Positions 300 to 34,880 of a stretch of DNA of 34,880 nucleotides are shown one piece after another (the stretch's first letter is position 1; every line of letters starts with the position of its first letter). A model generated the notes under the pieces. That model did not search any database and was not told the origin of the DNA. It was given only the letters and a program-made list of their open reading frames with translations. The stretch covers positions 1-34,880 of the forward strand of contig CAMKGX010000015.1 of the NCBI GenBank assembly GCA_946412355.1, written 5' to 3'. The stretch is from an uncultured Clostridia bacterium. GTDB lineage: Bacteria; Bacillota; Clostridia; Oscillospirales; Oscillospiraceae. The translations under genes were made by a program, and so were the position numbers.

Positions 300-720
300 T
301 AAAAAGCGGGCAATCATCGCCGGGTACAGCGACGCAGAGGGGCGGACAGCGCCAGCGACACCCCGCGAAGAATGAGCGGACGGTGGAGCCAGTGCCCTTG
401 GGGTAAGTCGTCCGCTCCTACGGAGGGAGACGGTGCCGTTTGCCATTCAACCGGCCGTGGTGCTCCATCGCCCGCCTACCGTAAGCTGCTGCAAAATCTC
501 GTGCTCTCGTTGCGGCAAACCGATTTCCAGACCCTTCGGGCCATGAAAATCGGGCCGCTGCCTTGCGGCGGGCACGCTGCATCCGCCATACCCCAAGGGC
601 ACTGGCTCCACAAGCCGCTCGTACCTCGCGGTGTGTCGCTGGCGCCGGCGGCGCTGTGCCCGCACGCCCCCTCATCCGTCACGGCCTGCGGCCGTGCCGC
701 CTTCTCCCCAAGGAGAAGGC
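300..720. repeat. Composite palindromic repeat block
   Basis: This gene-free stretch holds repeat modules found elsewhere in the window. Positions 497-650 contain a long imperfect palindrome (GTTGCGGCA ... GGGCCGCTGCC) followed by a conserved tail ending near CCCTTGGGG. Positions 666-720 contain the CCCCTCATCCGTCACGG module. Together, 497-720 matches 14564-14795 inside mutL in the same order and orientation, and part matches 24834-24916 inverted. Positions 330-402 carry a reverse-oriented version of the tail. Small overlapping open frames exist on both strands, but none has a recognisable product. Confidence 0.8.
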
Positions 721-5500: not shown

Positions 5501-7086
5501 CCTGGACGGAGACCGTTGCCACCGCCACCGACGCCGGAGACTACACCGTTCACGCCCGGTATGAGGGCAACAGCACCCATCCCGGCACCCTGGCTCTGGA
5601 GGATATAAGCGTTACCATCGCCAAGGCCCCCGGACAGGTGACGGCGCCGGAGCTGCGCTGGAGCATGCCCGGCAGCACGGAAGTCCAGGGTGAAGAGCGG
5701 CAGTGCTACACCGTGGGCATCGAGGGAACAGAGGGACAGGTCTACGTCATCGCGCCCCAGGGACAGGAGCCCGACTGGAGCGCCGCCGCGACCCCGGATG
5801 AGGACGGCCTGGTGGCATTCAGCGGTCTGGACGCCGCCACCACCTACGATATTTACACCCGGACAGCAGGCGACGGCAACCACGCCGAAGCCACCGCCAA
5901 GCTCACCTACACCACCGGTCTTTACAGCGTCAGCAAGGCGGGCTACGACTACGTAGGCGAGACCATCACCGTCACCCCCGAGCCGGAGGACGCCTCGGGC
6001 CTCACCTACCGCTGGTACCACGCAAAGGAGTCGGAGGAATTCGGCATGGTGCGGGAGGAGACGCCCATCTCCGGCGCGGAAAGCGCCTCCTACACCATCA
6101 CCCAGGAGGATCTGGGCTGGTATCTCTGTGTGGAGATCCGTAAGAACGGCGCCTCCCTGATGGAGAGCGAGTTCGGCCCCGTTACCTACTGGCCCGCCCA
6201 GTTCCTCACCGTCACCCTGTCCGCCGACGCCCTCACCGGCGACGGCACCAAGGCCGTGGGGCCTGCCGTCACCGTGAAAGCCGACGAGCTGGTGCTGACC
6301 CAGGGCAAGGACTACACCCTGTCCGGCCAGCTTACCTCCACCGCCTTCGGCACCCACACCATCACCGTCACCGGCTGCGGGCGCTTTGAGGGCACCCATG
6401 ACATCACCTGGACCCTGTCCGCCGCCGAGAGCCGGAAGGAAACGCGGGAGGATGCGTGGGGCAAGCCCATCGTCACCGACACGGTTTCCGCCCCCGGCGC
6501 TCCCGCCGCAGCCGTCAGCGCCATCACCCCCGCCAAGGCCCTGGCCCTGCTGGGGGAGGACAGCTATTACATGAGCCCGTCGCTCCTCTTCTACCTCCAG
6601 GCAGAGAGCAGAACCCACGCCCAGCTCTCCGCCGCCGAGGTCAACGCCCTGGCGGACCTGCGCAGAGCCGGCGCCGGGTTGCAGATGGGGCAGTATATGG
6701 CCCTGAGCTTCTATTGCCGGGAGGGCGACGGCGCCGCTCAGGCCCTGACGGAGCTGAATGAAAGCGTCACCGTCTCCGTGACCATCCCGGAGGCGCTGCG
6801 CAACGCCCCCACGGGCTTCCGCCGCACGTTTACCCTGGTGCGCGTCCATGACGGCGTGGCCACGGCCCTGCCCACCACCCGCAGCGGCAACGTGCTCACC
6901 GCCGCCACCGACCGGTTCTCCACCTATGTCATCGCCTACCGGGATTCCCCGCTGTGGACCCCCGCCGCCGATGCGCCCGTGAACTCCGCCGCCACCGGCG
7001 ATCACGGCGTGGTGCTGTGGAGCCTTCTGGTGCTGGCCAGCGCCCTGGCGCTGCCTGTGGTCACCCGCCGCAGACGGGCGGAGTAA
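2563..7086 (+). CDS. Secreted multidomain arabinogalactan endo-beta-1,4-galactanase (GH53)
   Basis: 1507 residues. GH53 enzymes cut beta-1,4-galactan side chains of pectin. Residues 1-28 form a signal peptide. A jelly-roll-like carbohydrate-binding domain follows (about 32-168, starting NLLTNGSFE), then an Ig-like domain (178-298) and the catalytic domain (about 305-690). The acid/base is E449 in QIGNE and the nucleophile E547 in VAETSYAYT. Next come a bacterial Ig-like domain (700-790), a second CBM-like domain (790-945, ending GGWGTLDAMEL, compare GGWGHLDDLRL in the first), and several Ig/Fn3-like modules to about 1290. The C-terminus has TGDHG, a hydrophobic segment and RRRR, resembling a sortase-type or membrane anchor without canonical LPXTG. 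The start has AGAGGA upstream. No transporter or regulator genes sit beside it. Family assignment is firm; binding-domain types are inferred. Confidence 0.93.
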   Translation: MRRGWQKWLATALALVMVFSIMPRVSFAQDDNLLTNGSFETDFWHDDGKSWSVAVESWTDTTTEWKEASAADGTHYFNYWSKSAQVLTISQTVTLTAGSYTLSFKNQGASATVQGFIGTMDGRSVTPTAWDVWDKVSDTFTVTADGDYTVGVRLNLSDGGWGHLDDLRLAKQSGQATPTDGLYVTPSTVSAEAGDTLTFTARWVQNGVAAEAVPEGYSLWWWLDYYADNGHADGNSDGALSNYDNNSGKTLTCGLTVPSEGTYYLAAELKQGDTQVAITYATVTVTAAAAAVEDNLNVSRIKFQNSDFIRGMDVSSVLALEQSGVKFYDENGAEGDLFKILADNGVNYIRVRVWNNPYDSQHNGYGGGNNDVAKAAAIGKRAADNGMKLLVDFHYSDFWADPSKQKAPKAWENLDVDAKAAAVQAFTTDALTAIKAAGANVGMVQIGNETTGGICGESTWANMAKIYNAGAAAVRAFDEDVLVAVHFTNPEKTATIKGLADKLHENNVDYDVFATSYYPYWHGSLTNLTAVLDYAATTYGKYAMVAETSYAYTLDDSDGHENTVRRGNNDTSDNLKWPFTPQGQATEVREVMNAVNNVSGGKGLGVFYWEGAWVTVGDTTGLTGDDLAGKRKANSALWEQNGAGWAASYAGEYDPDDAGKWYGGSAVDNQAFFGSDGVMLRSLKVFKYVKTGAVNTLLSVESVEAPVLTVTEGQAVTLPGTLAVTYSDSQEPVAETVVWNADDVAALADAKGGQSCTVHGTVTLSRTAEDGDYKGLTSAPVTCTVTVKHVNLLIGDDVSFEGGSGRFTLQNAAITTDDPFEGAHAVHWYLKNGGTGTVTYKGPQGAGVTLPEGTYTFAVKAQGNSGEAVRLSVTDGSATLATGTDTALTGWAAWQESTVTFTLTRETAVYPTMTIAIQPGGWGTLDAMELYAVAAETAADNQRPTARENLMYTGQALALVNPPKEALPGYAIRYSLDGTTWTETVATATDAGDYTVHARYEGNSTHPGTLALEDISVTIAKAPGQVTAPELRWSMPGSTEVQGEERQCYTVGIEGTEGQVYVIAPQGQEPDWSAAATPDEDGLVAFSGLDAATTYDIYTRTAGDGNHAEATAKLTYTTGLYSVSKAGYDYVGETITVTPEPEDASGLTYRWYHAKESEEFGMVREETPISGAESASYTITQEDLGWYLCVEIRKNGASLMESEFGPVTYWPAQFLTVTLSADALTGDGTKAVGPAVTVKADELVLTQGKDYTLSGQLTSTAFGTHTITVTGCGRFEGTHDITWTLSAAESRKETREDAWGKPIVTDTVSAPGAPAAAVSAITPAKALALLGEDSYYMSPSLLFYLQAESRTHAQLSAAEVNALADLRRAGAGLQMGQYMALSFYCREGDGAAQALTELNESVTVSVTIPEALRNAPTGFRRTFTLVRVHDGVATALPTTRSGNVLTAATDRFSTYVIAYRDSPLWTPAADAPVNSAATGDHGVVLWSLLVLASALALPVVTRRRRAE

Positions 7087-12789: not shown

Positions 12790-13725
12790 TTATCCTAATC
12801 CACAGGCGGTGAGATAATCTGTCGCATCCTGTAAGGCGGCGGGGAAATTTGGCTCGCTGCCCCAGTGGATCCAATGGATGGCGGTGTTGCGCCGCAGCCA
12901 GGTAAGCTGCCGCTTGGCGTACTGGCGGGAGCGGAGCTTCACCTCCGCCACGGCCTCGTCCACCGTGGCACGGCCCTGCTCCACCGCCAGAAACTGCTTG
13001 TAGCCGATGGCCTGGAGGGCGGTGGCGTCGGGGGAGAGGCCGGAGGAGAGCAGGGCCTCCACCTCCTGCAAAAGGCCGTGGGCCACCATGTCGTCCACGC
13101 GAGCGTCGATGCGGCGGCGGAGATCGTCACGGTTTGCAAAGTCCAGGCCGATGTAGGCCGCCGCATAGCGGGGCGGGCGGGCGGCCTGGGCGGCGCACTG
13201 CTCGGTAAAGGTGCGGCCGGTGGTCTGGTAGACCTCCAGGGCCCGGAGGATGCGCTTTTCATCTTTGCTATGGAGCTTGGCCGCGGCGGCGGGGTCAATC
13301 CGGGCCAATTCCGCCAGCAGCGTTTCCGCCCCTTCGGCTTGCAGGCGCTGCTGCAACGCCCGCCGCACCGGCTCCCCCTGGGCGCCGGGGGCAAAGTCCA
13401 TGCCCTGCACCAGGGCGTCCAGCCAGAGGCCGGTGCCGCCCACCAGGACGGGGGTCTTGCCCCGGGAGAGGATGTCCTGCACACACTGATCCGCCATGGC
13501 CACGTACCGGGCCACCGACCAGCTCTCGGAGGGGTCGGCCACGGCGACCATGTGGTGGGGCACGCCCTCCCGCTCCTCCGCCGTGGGGGCGGCGGTGCCG
13601 ATGGTCATGCCGCGGTAAATCTGCATGGAGTCCACCGACACCACCTCGCCGCCGAAGCGGCGGGCCAGGGCCACGCCCATTTTCGTTTTTCCGCTGGCGG
13701 TGGGGCCAACGACACAAAGCAACAT
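12790..13725 (-). CDS. miaA: tRNA dimethylallyltransferase MiaA
   Basis: 311 residues from the ATG at 13725. The longer frame starting at 13785 is rejected because the protein family begins with MLLCVVGPTASGKT and GAGG lies upstream of this ATG. It transfers a dimethylallyl group to A37 of tRNAs reading UNN codons. The P-loop GPTASGKT, the DSMQIYRGMTIGTA region, GGTGLWLDAL and the C-terminal RQYAKRQLTWLRR stretch are all present. MiaB in the same operon methylthiolates the product, so both steps of ms2i6A37 synthesis are encoded here. Confidence 0.97.
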   Translation of the reverse strand: MLLCVVGPTASGKTKMGVALARRFGGEVVSVDSMQIYRGMTIGTAAPTAEEREGVPHHMVAVADPSESWSVARYVAMADQCVQDILSRGKTPVLVGGTGLWLDALVQGMDFAPGAQGEPVRRALQQRLQAEGAETLLAELARIDPAAAAKLHSKDEKRILRALEVYQTTGRTFTEQCAAQAARPPRYAAAYIGLDFANRDDLRRRIDARVDDMVAHGLLQEVEALLSSGLSPDATALQAIGYKQFLAVEQGRATVDEAVAEVKLRSRQYAKRQLTWLRRNTAIHWIHWGSEPNFPAALQDATDYLTACGLG

Positions 13726-13740
13726 AGCAAATCCTCGAAT

Positions 13741-13916
13741 CGTAAAAAAGCATCGCAGATTTCGCGCCCGCAGGCGCGAACCCATCTAATCAAAATTTCT
13801 GGCGGCGTGTACGTCAGAAATTTTACTTCTCAGACCACGCAGTGTGCGAGCGCAGCGAGTGCGCGGAGTGGGCTGCCATCCTATTATCAGAAAACGGCTT
13901 TGCCGTTTTCTGATAG
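13741..13916. repeat. Cluster of intergenic hairpins between mutL and miaA
   Basis: The 200-base gap holds at least three palindromes: 13761-13780 (TTCGCGCC/GGCGCGAA, perfect), 13792-13824 (AAAATTTCTG/CAGAAATTTT) and 13885-13915 (TATCAGAAAACGG/CCGTTTTCTGATA, perfect). None ends in a T-run in the minus direction typical of a strong terminator, so transcription may pass, but RNA processing or partial attenuation is possible. They are unlike the G+C-rich palindromes elsewhere in the window. Confidence 0.7.
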
Positions 13917-13925
13917 GCGCAAGCC

Positions 13926-16094
13926 TTACGCTCTTTTAAAGAATTTTTCGATTTCGTAGCGGCTCAGGCGGTATTTCACCGGGCGGCCGTGGGGGCAATA
14001 CTGGATGGCGCCGGACTGTACCTTGTCCACCAGCACCCGCCACTCGGCGGGGTCGGTGGTCATGCCGGCCTTGATGGCGCTCTTGCAGGCCATGGTGTGC
14101 AGCAGCTCGTCCCGGGCGGCGGCGGGGTCGGCACGGCCGACGGCCAGCTTGTGGGCCAGCTCCTCCACTGTGGCGGCAGCGTCCTCCATGCGGATGTCCG
14201 CCGGGATGGCCCGGAGCAGGATGGTGCCGCCGCCGAAGTCCTCACACTGGAAGCCGAACTGCTCCAACGCGGGGAGGTTTTGCAGCGCGGCGTCGTAGTC
14301 GTCGGCCTCCAAGGTGACGGTGAGGGGCAGCAGCAGCGTCTGGGCCATCAGGGGCTGGGGGTTTTCTTTCAGGGCGTCGAAGCGGATGCGCTCGTGGGCG
14401 GCGTGCTTGTCGATAAGCCAGACGCTGCCCGCGTCGTCCTCGCAGATGATGTAGGTTTTCAGCACCTCGCCCACGATTCGCCAGGGGGCGGGAGCGGGGG
14501 GCTCTATGGGGAGTTGGGCGGGGGTCTCGTGCTCTGTTGCTATGTTCTCCTGGGCTTGGGTGGGCATCTCGCGCTCTCGTTGCGGCAGCCGATTTTCACT
14601 CCCGTTGGTCGTGAAAATCGGGCCGCTGCCTTGCTGCGCCCTCGCTGCATCCGCCATACCCCAGGGGCACTGGCTCCACAATCCGCTCGTGTCCTCGCGG
14701 TGTGTCGCTGGCGCCGGCGGCGCTTCGGGCGCAGCCCCCTCATCCGTCACGGCCCGTTGGGCCGTGCCACCTTCCCCCCAAGGAGAAGGCTGGGGGTGTT
14801 CTATCGGCAGTTGGGTGGTTGTCGCCCCCTCATCCGCTTCGCTTCGCTCAGCACCTTCCCCCCAGGGGGAAGGCTGGGCACTATTTTCCGCCGGGGGCGG
14901 GGTGATGACGTACTGTTTGCCCTGGGGGGCCGGGGCGGTGAAGGCTTGGCCGGGGGCGGGGGCCACGTCGCGCAGGGGCAGGGCGGCGGACTTGGCGCCG
15001 TAGCTGCCCAGGGGCTTTTTGGCCTGCTCCACCGCGGCAGCCCGGTATTCCTCCGCCGTCATGGTGCGGTAAAACTCCCGCTGGGGGGCGGGGGCGGCGG
15101 GGCGGTTTTCGGCGTCCAGGGCGTCCTTGACGGTGTAATACACCGCGTCGAACACCGGCTTTTCCGCCGCGAACTTCACCACCGTCTTGGCGGGGTGGAC
15201 GTTGACGTCCACCATGTCGTGGGGCAGCGACACATGGATGACGCAGCCGGGGAACTTGCCCTTTAAGAGCCGATTGCGGTACGCCTCCTCCAGCGCCGCC
15301 TGCAAAAGCTGGGACTTCACCAGACGGCCGTTGACGAAGAAAATCTGCCGGGCCCGGGTGCCGTGGCCGGCCAGGGGGGCGGTGATGAAGCCGTGGGCGG
15401 ACACGTCGCCGCCGGCGCCGTGGATGGGCAGCAGCGACTTTGCGAAATCGCGGCCCAGGGCGGCGTAGACGGCGCTCAGAAGCTGGCCGTCGCCGGGGGT
15501 GTGCAGCGCCTCCTGGCCGCTGCGCAGCAGCTTGAAGGAGATGTCCGGGTGGCTCAGGGCCAGGTGGGTGACCACGTTTGCTACCGCGGTGGCCTCGGCG
15601 GTGTCCTTTTTCATAAACTTCATGCGGGCGGGGGTGTTGTAAAACAGGTCCCGGACGCAGATGGTGGTGCCCTCCGGGCAGCCGGCGGCCTCCACCTTGC
15701 CGGGGACGCCGCCCTCCAGATGGAGCATGGCCCCCTCCAACCCGCCGGGGGTGCGGGAGTAGATATCCACACGGCTGACGGCGCTGATGGCGGCCAACGC
15801 CTCGCCCCGGAAGCCCAGGGTGCCGATGGCGGCCAGGTCCTCCGCCGTGCGCAGCTTGGAGGTGGCGTGGCGCAAAAAGGCCACGGGCAGCTGCTCCGGC
15901 GTCATGCCGCAGCCGTTGTCGGTGATGCGCAGATACGTAAGGCCGCCGTTTTCCAGCTCCACCACCACGGCGGAGGCGCCGGCGTCGATGGCGTTTTCCA
16001 GCAGCTCCTTGGCCACGCTGGCGGGGCGCTCCACCACCTCTCCGGCGGCGATCAGCTCGGCGGTATGGCGGTCTAATTGTCGGATTTCAGGCAT
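13926..16094 (-). CDS. mutL: DNA mismatch repair protein MutL with repeat-built linker
   Basis: 722 residues, longer than most clostridial MutL. The GHKL ATPase domain occupies about 1-330 (ELLENAIDAGA, DNGCGM, GFRGEAL). The C-terminal dimerisation/endonuclease domain (about 530-722) has DKHAAHERIRFD near 561, ACKSAIKAGM and CPHGRP, marking the nicking type; the first motif ends in Asp where Glu is usual. Between them, residues about 405-511 are translated from palindromic repeats found between genes elsewhere in this window, giving duplicated PSPWGEG strings. AAAGGAGGG precedes the ATG and overlaps the mutS stop region. MutL links mismatch recognition by MutS to strand nicking. Confidence 0.95.
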   Translation of the reverse strand: MPEIRQLDRHTAELIAAGEVVERPASVAKELLENAIDAGASAVVVELENGGLTYLRITDNGCGMTPEQLPVAFLRHATSKLRTAEDLAAIGTLGFRGEALAAISAVSRVDIYSRTPGGLEGAMLHLEGGVPGKVEAAGCPEGTTICVRDLFYNTPARMKFMKKDTAEATAVANVVTHLALSHPDISFKLLRSGQEALHTPGDGQLLSAVYAALGRDFAKSLLPIHGAGGDVSAHGFITAPLAGHGTRARQIFFVNGRLVKSQLLQAALEEAYRNRLLKGKFPGCVIHVSLPHDMVDVNVHPAKTVVKFAAEKPVFDAVYYTVKDALDAENRPAAPAPQREFYRTMTAEEYRAAAVEQAKKPLGSYGAKSAALPLRDVAPAPGQAFTAPAPQGKQYVITPPPAENSAQPSPWGEGAERSEADEGATTTQLPIEHPQPSPWGEGGTAQRAVTDEGAAPEAPPAPATHREDTSGLWSQCPWGMADAARAQQGSGPIFTTNGSENRLPQREREMPTQAQENIATEHETPAQLPIEPPAPAPWRIVGEVLKTYIICEDDAGSVWLIDKHAAHERIRFDALKENPQPLMAQTLLLPLTVTLEADDYDAALQNLPALEQFGFQCEDFGGGTILLRAIPADIRMEDAAATVEELAHKLAVGRADPAAARDELLHTMACKSAIKAGMTTDPAEWRVLVDKVQSGAIQYCPHGRPVKYRLSRYEIEKFFKRA
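14564..14879. repeat. Palindromic repeat modules inside the mutL coding sequence
   Basis: Positions 14564-14795 match 497-720 module for module: the GTTGCGGCA...GGGCCGCTGCC palindrome (14577-14630), the conserved tail with GGCGCCGGCGGCGC, and the CCCCTCATCCGTCACGG module (14734-14795). A second, diverged copy of the last module follows at 14824-14879. The open frame of mutL on the minus strand is kept throughout. Confidence 0.9.
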
Positions 16095-21786: not shown

Positions 21787-21862
21787 GCGCGGTTAGCTCA
21801 GCTGGTAGAGCACATGCTTGACGTGCATGGGGTCACAGGTTCGAGTCCTGTACCGCGCACCA
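21787..21862 (+). tRNA. tRNA-Val (anticodon GAC), integration target
   Basis: 76 bases with acceptor stem GCGCGGT/ACCGCGC, encoded CCA, D-loop TAGCTCAGCTGGTAGAG, and anticodon loop TTGACGT giving GAC (valine). Its 3' 48 bases are repeated exactly at 24666-24713, the far end of an integrated element, so the tRNA was restored on insertion. Confidence 0.96.
21815..21862 (+). other. attL of the tRNA-Val element
   Basis: 48 bases from TGCTTGACG to the CCA end, identical to 24666-24713; together with the intact tRNA 5' part this end restores the functional tRNA. Confidence 0.88.
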
Positions 21863-21866
21863 TCAA

Positions 21867-21905
21867 AAAAGCCCTGTATCCATCAAGGATACGGGGCTTT
21901 CGTTA
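21867..21905 (+). terminator. Terminator after tRNA-Val (carried by the element)
   Basis: Stem AGCCCTGTATCC/GGATACGGGGCT with one mismatch pair, a five-base loop and a T-rich tail. It lies just inside the element's left end, so the element appears to supply the tRNA with a new terminator; the apparent original one is at 24714-24750. Confidence 0.8.
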
Positions 21906-21970
21906 TTTTGACGAAAAAGGGCCCATTTACCCGCCCCATGAAAAGGCCCAAACAGGCCGAAAAGTTGCAA

Positions 21971-22010
21971 AAATCCCCTGTGCAGAAAAAAGGCTGCACA
22001 GGGGATTTTG
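21971..22010. terminator. Terminator of the element's Xre gene
   Basis: A perfect 16-base-pair stem (AAAATCCCCTGTGCAG and its complement) ends exactly at the Xre stop codon, with A/T tracts on both sides. An identical copy exists at 25058-25097. Confidence 0.88.
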
Positions 22011-22388
22011 TCATTTCTCGGCGTCGCTGCGACACGTGAGGTAGTCCAGGCTGACGCCATAGCAATCCGCCAGGCGCACCAGTGCCTCCACGTTGGGCTC
22101 GTTGCGTCCGATTTCGTACCCGGACAGGGTAATCACGTTGAGGCCGGTTTTCTCCGCCACCTCCTGCTGCTTCAACCCCCGGGCCTTGCGAACAGCCTTC
22201 AACCGTTCCGCCACGTCTTTCTTGCGCTGCGCTCTGGCAGCGGAATAGCCGGCTATGGTGTTGTAGTCCGCCCGGATGCCGTCCAGCACCAGGCTGACGG
22301 CTTCGCCTACCGGGATGGACTTGTCCGCCCCCAGGCGCTCCGCCTCCCGGAACTTCTCGCCCAGCGCCTCCTTGACCTCTTTCTCCAC
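22011..22388 (-). CDS. Xre-family repressor of the integrated element
   Basis: 125 residues from the GTG at 22388, chosen because AAAGGAGG lies seven bases upstream; a longer frame to 22490 would run through this site and the promoter. The N-terminal half is helical without a known domain (EKEVKEALGEKFREAERLG). The C-terminal half (59-118) is a clear Cro/C1-type helix-turn-helix (RGLKQQEVAEKTGLNVITLSGYE, then LVRLADCYGVSLDYLT). It is divergent from rep-int, and palindromic operators overlap the promoter between them. It probably represses rep-int and possibly itself, keeping the element quiescent. Confidence 0.88.
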   Translation of the reverse strand: MEKEVKEALGEKFREAERLGADKSIPVGEAVSLVLDGIRADYNTIAGYSAARAQRKKDVAERLKAVRKARGLKQQEVAEKTGLNVITLSGYEIGRNEPNVEALVRLADCYGVSLDYLTCRSDAEK

Positions 22389-24797: not shown

Positions 24798-24949
24798 GCT
24801 TGACGGGCATGGGGTTTATCGCCGAAGCGCTGCCTGTGGCGGATGAAGCGAGGCGATAAAAAGGCAGCGGCCCGGTTTCCACGGCCCGAAGGGTCTGGAA
24901 ACCGGCTGCCGCAACGTGGACACAGGTTCGAGTCCTGTACCGCGCACCA
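24798..24949 (+). repeat. Third tRNA-Val att copy split by a 105-base palindromic insertion
   Basis: GCTTGACG-GCATGGGGT (24798-24815, one mismatch to the tRNA) and CACAGGTTCGAG to CCA (24921-24949, identical) are adjacent in the intact tRNA but separated here by 24816-24920. The insert contains TTTATCGCC/GGCGATAAA and a palindrome GGCAGCGGCCCGGTTTCCA with its partner, homologous to 508-600 and 14577-14660 in opposite orientation. Confidence 0.78.
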
Positions 24950-24953
24950 AGAG

Positions 24954-25120
24954 AAAAGCCCTGTATCCATCAAGGATACGGGGCTTTCGTTATTTTGACG
25001 AAAAAGGGCCCATTTACCCGCCCCATGAAAAGGCCCAAACAGGCCGAAAAGTTGCAAAAATCCCCTGTGCAGAAAAAAGGCTGCACAGGGGATTTTGTCA
25101 TTTCTCGGCGTCGCTGCGAC
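24954..25120. repeat. 167-base direct repeat, copy 2 (remnant of a second element)
   Basis: Identical to 21867-22033, including the Xre 3' end without the rest of that gene, and directly downstream of the third att copy. It is best read as the left tip of a second integrated element whose body was lost. Confidence 0.88.
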
Positions 25121-25990
25121 GGCGTTGGGGACGTGGGGCTCGGGCGATTCGTGAATCGCCCCTACGGTGGAAACGGCGTCGGTGTTCTTTGTAGGGACGC
25201 TTCATGAAGCGCCCGTTTGCGCGGACGGATTGTGATGGTGGGGGAGGGGGCGTTTACCATTCAGCCGTCCCGGGCGGTGGGCGGGGTCTGGGGTGCGGGC
25301 CGCCGGGTCGTCGGCCCCTACGGTGGGGCGATGCCGTTTGCCGTTTATCCGGCGTGGTCGGTGGGTGGTGGCGGGGTGGGCGGAGCAGAGCCCCGCCCCT
25401 ACGGACGGTTATCGTTTCCGTGTGCCATTCAACCGAGCCTTGGCGGGTGTCGTTATCTGGTTCGGGCCGCCTGCGCCAGCGACACACCGCGAGGACACGA
25501 GCGGATTGTGGAGCCAGTGCCCTTGGGGTAGGCGGCGGCCCCTACGGTGAAAAAACACAGATGTCGGTTCTCGCCGTAGGGCGCGACGACCCCGGCGCGC
25601 CGTGACCCGGCGGCGGGGGTGATAAACGGCATCGTTGGTTGCGGGGGGTGCGATGTTGTGGTGTAGGGGCGGGGCTCTGCTCCGCCCTTTCTGCGTCACC
25701 GAACCCAGGCTGGGGCGGACAGAGTCGTCCGCCCCTACGGATGGTTGCCGTTACCGTTTGCCATTCATCCCGGCGGGGCGGGCATCGCCCCCTCATCCGT
25801 CACGGCCCGATGGGCCGTGCCACCTTCCCCCCGTGGGGGAAGGCTGGGGCGGAGATTTGTTTCCATTTGCCATTTGACCGGGAGGGGCGGGTGTCGTTAC
25901 CGGGTTCGGGCCGCCGGGTCGTCGGCCCCTACGGTGGATTGCGATGCCGTTTTCCGTTTATCCGGGCTGGGCGGCTGGCGATTTTTTTGG
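25121..25990. repeat. Palindromic repeat mosaic, block 1
   Basis: Gene-free stretch made of G+C-rich palindromes with CCCCTACGG-type flanks joined by short recurrent connectors. Units: 25142-25167 (core GATTCGTGAATC), 25191-25214 (GCTTCATGAAGC), 25297-25323 and 25908-25934 (GGGCCGCCGGGTCGTCGGCCC), 25378-25404 and 25663-25687 (GCGGAGCAGAGCCCCGC, both orientations), 25575-25610 (GGCGCGACGACC), 25707-25740 (GGCGGACAGAGTCGTCCGCC) and 25787-25850 (CCTCATCCGTCACGG). 25468-25541 matches the tail seen at 330-402. Open frames in it are all products of repeat translation. Confidence 0.88.
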
Positions 25991-26021
25991 CGTCGGGGTG
26001 GCTATTGGGGACGGATTATGG

Positions 26022-26027
26022 TACAAT
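26022..26027 (+). promoter_or_regulatory. -10 box of the DUF3592 gene
   Basis: TACAAT preceded by TATGG, giving an extended -10 (TGG before the box). The same ATGGTA-AAT pattern occurs before the galactanase. No good -35 is visible. Confidence 0.5.
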
Positions 26028-26074
26028 ACTAACTATCCCATCCACACATTATTTCAGAAAAGGAGCGTGGCGTT

Positions 26075-27121
26075 ATGATTTCACTGCGCGGGCCCAGATT
26101 GAAGATTTTTGCGGCGGTTTTGGCGGTCATCTGCCTGGCCGCGGGGATTTATTTCACCTTTTTCCAGTCCCGGGGCTTTGAGAAAACCACAGCGGAGATC
26201 GTGGACATTGAGTCCAATTACGATGGCGACAGCACCACCTACACCCCCACGGTGCGGTACACGGTAAACGGCGTGATCTACACCGAAACGCTGGACCAGT
26301 CCAGCGGCTCCTACAAGGTGGGCAAGACCATCACCATCAAATATAACCCCAAAGACCCCTCCATCATCCACGGGAGCGGCGGCTTCGGCATCTATCTGAT
26401 GGTGGTCAGCGCCGCCATTCTGGCGGTGGTGATCGTGACCAGCGTGCGGGAAAAGCGGGCTATGACCGAGCTCCACGGCAAGCGGGAGATGGGCGCCCGG
26501 CGGGGCTACCGGCCCTCGGAGCAGGGGGAGGAGCGGGAGCTCTACTTCCTCACCGACCTGGGCACGGCCAAGTACGGCCACCGGCTGGAGGACGGCCGGC
26601 GGCGGGTGCTGTATGAGGCCAAGATGACCAAATTCACCCTCATCACCCCCTTCGGCTTCGACTTCATCGACCACGAGCACGGCACCACCACCCCCCATCT
26701 GGTGGGCCACAGCGAGGAGAGCCACTGGAACTCCCTGCTGCTGGACAGCCATTACACCTTTGAGCTGGACGGCGTGGACGTGTTCAAGCATTTGCAGGAA
26801 AACGGCATCACGGTGGAATCCAGCCTGGGGGGCGGCAGCGGCAAGCTGCTGGGCGACAACTACCGGATTTTCCGGGACGGCACGGAGATCGCCCGGGCGG
26901 AAAGCACCGGCCAGTACCCCCACGAGGAGGACATGGAAAACCACAAGGTGGCCTCCGCCCTGGGCGGACAGGGCTTCTACCGGGTGTGGACCACGGAGCG
27001 GAACCTGGACCTGCTGTTTATGACCCTGATGGCCTTTGCCCGCACCGGGGCCATGGATGGCAAGGGCGGCACCTTCGGGGCCATTGCCGGCACCATCAGG
27101 AAAAACCTTCGGGACGAATAA
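26075..27121 (+). CDS. DUF3592-domain membrane protein
   Basis: 348 residues. An N-terminal membrane helix (about 9-30) is followed by an extracellular beta-rich segment with the DUF3592 pattern (TTAEIVDIESNYDGDSTTYTPTVRYTVNGVIYTETL ... GKTITIKYNPKDPS), a second helix (about 105-123), and a long cytoplasmic C-terminal domain of about 225 residues that I do not recognise. AAAAGGAG precedes the ATG. It is a single-gene unit with its own promoter and terminator, isolated between two blocks of palindromic repeats. Function unknown. Confidence 0.8.
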   Translation: MISLRGPRLKIFAAVLAVICLAAGIYFTFFQSRGFEKTTAEIVDIESNYDGDSTTYTPTVRYTVNGVIYTETLDQSSGSYKVGKTITIKYNPKDPSIIHGSGGFGIYLMVVSAAILAVVIVTSVREKRAMTELHGKREMGARRGYRPSEQGEERELYFLTDLGTAKYGHRLEDGRRRVLYEAKMTKFTLITPFGFDFIDHEHGTTTPHLVGHSEESHWNSLLLDSHYTFELDGVDVFKHLQENGITVESSLGGGSGKLLGDNYRIFRDGTEIARAESTGQYPHEEDMENHKVASALGGQGFYRVWTTERNLDLLFMTLMAFARTGAMDGKGGTFGAIAGTIRKNLRDE

Positions 27122-27130
27122 CACCCCACG

Positions 27131-27159
27131 GGGAGGACGGAGACGTCCTCCCTTTTTTT
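27131..27159 (+). terminator. Terminator of the DUF3592 gene
   Basis: Perfect stem GGGAGGAC/GTCCTCCC with a six-base loop and seven T, ten bases after the stop. Confidence 0.92.
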
Positions 27160-27990
27160 GAGAGAAGAGGGAGGAGAGAAAAGGGCGGAGCAGCGCCCAG
27201 GCTGGGGCGGACAGAGTCGTCCGCCCCTACGCACGGTGCCGATGCCGTTTTCCATTTATCCGCCTTTGGCGGTAAGCGTTACCTGGTTTGGCGGGACACA
27301 TAGGTCCCGCCCTACGGACGGTTATCGTTTCCGTGTGCCGTTTATCCGGCGTGGGCGGGTGTTGTTACCGGGTTCGGGCCGCCGGCGCCAGTGACGGCCC
27401 GCGAGGTACGAGCGGCTGCCGGAACAAGTGCCCTTGGGGTAGGCGTCGGCCCCTACGGTGGTTTGCGATACCGTTTGCCATGCAACCGGGCGGGGCGGGC
27501 GTCGCCCCCTCATCCGTCACGGCCCGATGGGCCGTGCCACCTTCCCCCTGTGGGGGAAGGCTGGAGCGGGGATTTGTTTCCGTGTGCCGTTCAACCGGCC
27601 GAGTGGGTATCGTTACCCGGGCGACGGGCGATTCGTGAATCGCCCCTACGGTGTAATCGTGGCGGCATCGGTTTTTACGTAGGGGCGCTTCATGAAGCGC
27701 CCATTTGCCGGTTGGCGGGGTTGCGTGGGCAGGATTTTGTTCGTAGGGGAGGACGACTCTGTCCTCCCCAGCCCAAGGTTGTTGACGCACAGGGGGCGGA
27801 CAGGGTCGTCCGCCCCTACGGTGGTTGTCGTTACCATTTTTCATCCACCCGGCCTAGGTGGTTTTCGTTACCTGGGCGACGGGCGATTCGTGAATCGCCC
27901 CTACGGTGGGAACATAGGTGGCGGTTCTCTTTGTAGGGGCGATTCATGAAGCGCCCCTACGGTCTTCCCGGTTGCCTCTTCCTTTCACAA
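27160..27990. repeat. Palindromic repeat mosaic, block 2
   Basis: No gene. Units of the same families as block 1: 27199-27231, 27747-27770 (inverted) and 27792-27821 (GGACAGAGTCGTCC type), 27292-27319 (GCGGGACACATAGGTCCCGC), 27380-27441 (long tail type), 27504-27567 (CCTCATCCGTCACGG), 27626-27651 and 27881-27906 (GATTCGTGAATC), and 27679-27702 and 27933-27962 (TTCATGAA). Connectors such as TATCGTTACC and CCATTCAACCGGCC recur between them. Confidence 0.88.
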
Positions 27991-34270: not shown

Positions 34271-34279
34271 TACATTTGT

Positions 34280-34880
34280 TGCCGCTCACCATCCACCCAG
34301 CCCATGTGGTTTTCGTTACCGGGGTACGGGCCGCCGAGTCGTCGGCCCCTACGGTGGGAAGGGTGATGCCGTTTGCCATTCAACCGGCCGGGCGGGTATC
34401 GTTACCCGGGCGGCGGGCGATTCGTGAATCGCCCCTACGGTGTAATTGTGGCGGCATCGGTTTTTTCGTTCCGTAGGGCGGGACCTGCGTGTCCCGCCTT
34501 GCCGGTTGGCGGGGTTGCGGGGGGCAGGGGCTGCGTAGGGCGCGACGACTCGGCGCGCCGTGACACGGGGCGGCATTGATAAAGGGCGTCGTTGGTTGCG
34601 GAGGGGCATGGTTTTGTCCGTAGGGGCGGGGCTCTGCTCCGCCCGAGGTCTGGGCGATGGACGAGAAAAGGGCGGAGCAGAGCCCCGCCCCTACGCATGG
34701 TTGTCGTTACCCATGTACCGTTTAACCAGCTTTGGCGGTCATCGTTACCCGGCCGCGGGCCGCCGAGTCGTCGGCCCCTACGGTGGGATCGATGCCGTGT
34801 GCCATCCACCCGGCCTGGGTGGGTATCGTTACCTGGGCGGCGGGCGATTCGTGAATCGCCCCTACGGTGTAATCGTGGCG
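34280..34880. repeat. Palindromic repeat mosaic, block 3 (runs past the window)
   Basis: No gene. Units: 34328-34354 and 34757-34783 (GGGCCGCCGAGTCGTCGGCCC), 34415-34440 and 34842-34867 (GATTCGTGAATC), 34483-34501 (GCGGGACCTGCGTGTCCCGC), 34534-34644 (a GGCGCGACGAC unit, a connector and a GGGGCTCTGCTCC unit in the same order as 25575-25687), and 34670-34695 (inverse of the last). The array is cut by the window end. Confidence 0.88.

Follow-up and report, generated by a model that had tools for sequence, protein, structure and literature searches.

Palindromic repeat modules in the linker of MutL in one clade of gut Clostridia

In one small clade of gut bacteria, the conserved mismatch repair protein MutL has been lengthened by about 100 residues by repeat DNA, and the sister species of the clade provide natural variants of it. 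We consider it likely that a permissive, disordered linker was invaded by palindromic repeats, which recombination then reshuffled, with selection keeping the reading frame rather than the peptide. The analysis starts from the window, that is, the whole stretch of 34,880 nt, whose species we call W, and extends to three sister species, G003, G023 and G044.

The insert and its modules

The mutL gene (13926..16094, minus strand) adjoins mutS and miaA in the window and encodes a protein of 722 aa, with an N-terminal ATPase, a long linker and a C-terminal MutL_C domain. Pfam matches are DNA_mis_repair, HATPase and MutL_C, the NCBIfam model TIGR00585 scores 500.8 bits (cut-off 180), and a GHKL ATPase at the N-terminus shares one chain with the MutL C-terminal domain, as expected of the MutL family. 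Between mutL and miaA, other palindromic repeats fill about 190 bp (13725-13925); they are absent from G003 and G023, where only about 13 bp lie between the aligned blocks at this gap.

MutL chains in the PDB match both domains; toward the N-terminus their alignments cover at most residues 2-392, and toward the C-terminus residues 540-721. Because the domain alignments end at 392 and resume at 540, residues 407-510 fall between the domains, which is where the initial annotation had placed the insert. By charge-hydropathy, the linker and the insert are on the disordered side, and the N and C domains on the folded side.

The insert spans 14566-14876 (MutL residues ~407-510) and is composed of modules A, B, C and C', which appear in the W linker in the coding order C', a 31-nt spacer, C, B, A. 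Module A (14566..14655, 90 nt) is on the plus strand, the coding strand being the minus, and so are B (14651..14722, 72 nt), C (14734..14792, 59 nt between anchors, giving PSPWGEGGTAQRAVTDEGA) and C' (14824..14876, 53 nt, giving PSPWGEGAERSEADEGA). Among the four linkers of the clade, A is found in W and G023, and B in W only. The spacer (14793..14823, minus strand, 31 nt, TTTQLPIEHP) is 81% identical over 26 nt to the tail of the native linker, and it also resembles, by eye, the spacer of tandem intergenic C copies in contig C57.

That this linker stretch comes from repeat DNA, in which the terminal module is present twice, once in diverged form, was already proposed from the window alone, and both points hold. 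The insert matches positions 496..720 (plus strand) at 87% identity over 225 bp, with the same module order and an E-value of 3.5e-70 in a search of one genome, which rules out chance similarity; the diverged second copy is real, and it is C'. The 496-720 stretch is an A-B-C composite that lies outside known genes, between a tRNA (8-89) and an ORF (785-2209), and it is the closest copy to the insert in the W genome. The description of this stretch as gene-free stands as far as known genes and a negative coding test go, but a mechanical ORF of 117 codons (372-725) does overlap it.

The reading frame through the insert is indeed open in W, as first described, but of 2000 dinucleotide shuffles 12% also have that frame open. 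Taken alone, the open frame across the insert is unremarkable! The intergenic twin at 496-720 hits a stop when read in the PSPWGEG frame. Judging by the sequence, the insert is probably translated. For its RNA the folding energy is -158.2 kcal/mol (z -4.0), a value that none of 100 shuffles equals.

With a genome in 92 contigs and modules that occur many times, repeat-rich contigs could have been misjoined inside mutL. But identity between the insert and the nearest other copy in its own genome is no more than 87%, and three further assemblies have modules at the same place in different layouts, which makes an assembly artefact very improbable.

Modules inside and outside genes

Other module copies in the window are of B at 349..405 (minus) and at 25466..25535 (minus, 96% identical to the mutL module B), and of C at 25787..25846 and 27504..27563 (both plus). 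For the insert compared to all 92 contigs of its own genome, we find at least 75 matches with E up to 1e-5, the best 40 of 97 candidates having been scored; the three sisters have at least 77, 72 and 67.

To call a module copy coding, we use a test that combines an open frame with codon usage over the whole flanks, applied to the fetched loci of the W genome with contig C36 left out. Just 4 of 87 non-redundant copies are coding, all in mutL, and none of the 83 outside mutL; in the matched control, 1218 of 2400 random 60-mers from the same genome's loci pass. An alternative test, in which the flanks are 100 codons, passes 0 of 87 copies at its first threshold, mutL copies included (1103 of 2220 random 60-mers pass), and at looser thresholds one and two copies, in mutL. 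Our coding count is based on the whole-flank version. In the sisters, where the counts cover part of each genome's matches, the copies called coding are 0 of 52 in G003, 0 of 50 in G023 and 1 of 63 in G044, the one being the mutL copy, with controls of 427/820, 383/740 and 489/1040. The mutL copies of G003 and G023 are not called coding, perhaps because of their divergence from the query modules and of a TAG codon (see below). In this clade, the modules lie almost wholly outside genes, and no gene other than mutL has a copy that the coding test recognized, a point that the initial annotation had missed.

Some further observations concern repeats near genes and tRNAs. A C' copy in contig C70 of the W genome (G000, 6149-6202) is in the open frame on the start side of a coding-like ORF of 472 codons, with 6 codons beyond the copy, and there the module may have a role at the gene's edge. 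In G007 (locus L039, ~2795-2941), an A-B composite lies shortly before the start codon of mutL and shares its open frame. Rfam at gathering thresholds reports two tRNAs in the window and nothing else. Palindromic repeats of other kinds are densely arrayed at 25089-27956 and 34276-34869, many of them showing a GTAGGGGCG...CGCCC pattern, and the alignment to the sister species breaks up at both. A block of 203 nt is duplicated at 21831-22033 and 24918-25120, about 3 kb apart and 98% identical, beside copies of the 3' part of a tRNA.

Which relatives have modules in the linker? We used one genome per species, mostly fragmented assemblies, for a total of 32 in the genus, and left out of the linker reading G008, whose mutL matched in three pieces, and G041, which had no match. 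Modules are present in 4 of the 30 remaining MutL loci (W, G003, G023 and G044), and the other 26, one of them interrupted by N (G012), keep the flanking linker without an insert. The four form one clade with support 0.994 in a two-domain tree of 32 sequences (4 of 36 loci, without usable domains, were dropped). A BLAST of the modules against 116 MutL loci, with E up to 1e-4, found no linker copy beyond these four, save L065, whose contig equals that of the G023 locus (L032) both in length and in the layout of its hits.

Beyond mutL, 15 of the 32 same-genus genomes have some module match at E up to 1e-6, and the number of matches peaks in the four genomes of the clade, followed by G011 with 21. 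In a shallow scan of the family, in which the best two candidates per genome were scored, a match occurs in 49 of 300 genomes and, counting the own genus, in 30 of 106 genera, and among the matches listed from outside the genus, all are in the C-type part of the query. These data bear on the possibility that mutL was the source of the repeats found in other places, the direction that was named at the outset as the one to refute insertion. The genus has modules at other places too, the family has those of C type, and 26 same-genus linkers have no module; we found nothing in favor of the gene-to-intergenic direction, we disfavor it, and we consider a mutL origin extremely improbable.

Four layouts and one frame

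The domain DNA of the sisters is 92-97% identical, and that of W is closest to G003 (95.0% and 97.1% nt). The linker of G003 is 84 residues shorter than that of W. Measured from VHPAK to DKHA, the span is 263 residues in W, 233 in G023, 179 in G003 and 194 in G044; in 25 other same-genus proteins it goes from 157 to 194, so that only W and G023 are outside the range of the others. Measured from ITPP to PWRI, the spans are 140 (W), 110 (G023), 57 (G003) and 71 (G044), and 18 others have 25-67, 17 of them at most 44.

A longer linker could be adaptive, if the length or composition of the disordered segment alters the movement of the MutL clamp or its reach to the cleavage site, and the repeat-derived segment was favored for it. 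The span of W, far outside the range of its relatives, speaks for this, and so do the reports that shortening the E. coli MutL linker abolishes roadblock bypass (PMC6902014), and that yeast Mlh1-Pms1 loses mismatch repair when its linkers are shortened or scrambled (PMC6393296). But the sisters vary widely, two having spans that other same-genus proteins also reach, the insert has kept neither its peptide nor even the reading frame of that peptide, and an E. coli linker cut by 40% shows no mutator phenotype (PMC6902014), which suggests tolerance. We find the adaptive explanation unlikely.

The linker layouts are C'-spacer-C-B-A in W, C'-spacer-C-A in G023, one C in G003 and C-spacer-C in G044; the G003 copy has a different hairpin, and a hairpin of the G003 type is found in the second C of G044. 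The initial annotation had described an insertion into a pre-existing linker. The direction is supported by the 4 of 30 loci, but a single insertion is not sufficient for four layouts among sisters; that the sisters differ from each other, that G003 holds one C element, and that the history is serial, was missed there. W and G023 have the C'-C-A layout in common even though the domains of W are closest to those of G003, which fits linker versions having been exchanged or sorted.

Across the four mutL genes there are seven C-type copies, with the same entry codon position and the same exit frame, and different frames in the middle. C elements in MutL read either as PSPWGEGGTAQRAVTDEGA or as PSPTGGRWPSAHTGGNEGA, two unrelated peptides! 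The anchor-to-anchor length is 2 modulo 3 for all 7 MutL copies, versus 15 of the 83 other copies in the loci analyzed; with loose anchors the class has 35 of 129 copies elsewhere, with looser ones 37 of 141, and MutL stays at 7 of 7 throughout. The p-value for the strict pattern, 6.3e-6, presumes independence, and the seven MutL copies are not independent. As far as sequences can tell, the same kind of element in different internal frames in orthologous genes is a clean sign that the frame is kept, and not the peptide.

W and G003 differ in the C domain by 16 synonymous and 0 nonsynonymous changes, and in the N domain their dN/dS is 0.094; the C-domain dN/dS is 0.095 for W-G044 and 0.114 for G003-G044. 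These low C-domain ratios indicate that the part downstream of the insert is under purifying selection in W, G003 and G044. G023, represented by one assembly, appears to have an in-frame TAG shortly before its insert, and its C domain, with a dN/dS of 0.18-0.25, is less constrained; the N-domain ratios are 0.12-0.14. The repeats might have landed in a decaying MutL, whose gene had lost its strong constraint. The stop codon and the C-domain ratios of G023 would agree with that; however, in W, G003 and G044 the frame runs open across the linker, the C-domain changes in pairs without G023 are those of a constrained protein, and the module lengths suit the frame. We give decay little credence.

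The spacing of the two C-type copies is 84 nt in W, 84 nt in G023 and 90 nt in G044, and thus a contraction between them would keep the frame. Such a spacing in multiples of three might also let recombination resize or disrupt the linker, and one could imagine the MutL linker as a contingency locus, in which recombination between C-type copies lengthens, shortens or disrupts the linker and thereby switches mismatch repair within populations. If so, recombination and mutation rates would be turned on and off, and G023 would have been caught in the off state. We hold this to be quite improbable.

Under the reading we prefer, a permissive linker invaded by repeats, elements that are otherwise almost wholly outside genes would have entered the MutL linker on the stem of the four-species clade, once or a few times. 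C-type elements would have come first, on that stem, and the linker would then have been remodelled as modules were gained, lost and exchanged. The route was probably recombination, in which C-type copies of mutL paired with each other and with copies at other places, and some of the latter may have brought B and A along. Outcomes that kept the frame would survive because of the C-terminal domain downstream. The inserted peptide would be mainly filler that lengthens the linker, and is presumably near-neutral. An extragenic parallel exists beside the ORF at 785, where W has A-B-C, and G023 has another C-type copy next to the orthologous C.

For the modules themselves, we identified no transposase, terminal repeat or target duplication. 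Seven A copies have the outer end GCCGCAACGAGAGCACGAG in common and then diverge, which establishes neither a terminal repeat nor a duplication of the kind that marks a MITE. A Y1 transposase (PF01797) was considered as the driver, on the model of REP elements with a RAYT partner; its presence does not follow the repeat copy number: there are 3 matches in G000, 1 in G003, 1 (weak) in G044 and 0 in G023, all four repeat-rich, and 3 in G008 and 2 in G019, with 1 and 0 repeat matches respectively. Two exact-pattern scans of viral contigs for phage carriage came back empty, and exact patterns would miss diverged copies.

Relation to known repeats and linkers

Among the titles and abstracts listed in searches of the open-access literature, none deals with palindromic repeats in a MutL linker, or with this repeat set. 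That MutL of E. coli and Mlh1-Pms1 of yeast have a long unstructured linker between the N- and C-terminal domains is established (PMC6902014, PMC6393296); those linkers are likewise disordered, and passages on them in the first paper and the abstract of the second do not mention repeats as their source. The repeat-built linkers described here provide a natural series for testing how far the length of a MutL linker matters.

Changes in repeat number inside mutL have been reported for Salmonella, where small tandem repeats slip and switch the allele (PMC2955026); the modules here are palindromic units of 53-90 nt in the linker. The enterobacterial RU-1/ERIC, RU-2 and RU-3 and the 107-bp Correia element are small repeats too; they have open frames and occur as in-frame fusions with genes (PMC2229807, PMC2759123). 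The modules are alike in being small and in frame, but terminal inverted repeats, listed for most of that group in a table of PMC2229807, and target duplications, listed for several, are not established for them. The main text of PMC2759123 has 0 occurrences of mutL.

A further close likeness is to the Rickettsia palindromic elements (RPE), which are found between genes and also in frame in genes for conserved proteins, where the protein tolerates them; they are counted in 19 reading frames (PMC2229807). The initial annotation drew this parallel, and it holds for behavior and not for membership: our modules also occur both between genes and in frame in a conserved protein gene, and they are palindromic with strong stem-loops. 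By analogy, then, the relation is one of likeness in behavior. In-frame palindromic repeats in Rickettsia and other bacteria are already known (PMC2229807). Unlike RPE, which are in many genes, the modules are in one gene, mutL, among the copies examined; they are mosaic, they differ among sister species, and one element is read in different internal frames. As far as the literature searched goes, the novelty lies in the repeat set itself, in the gene that holds it and in the apparent exclusivity of that gene, and also in the series of sister species and the change of internal frame.
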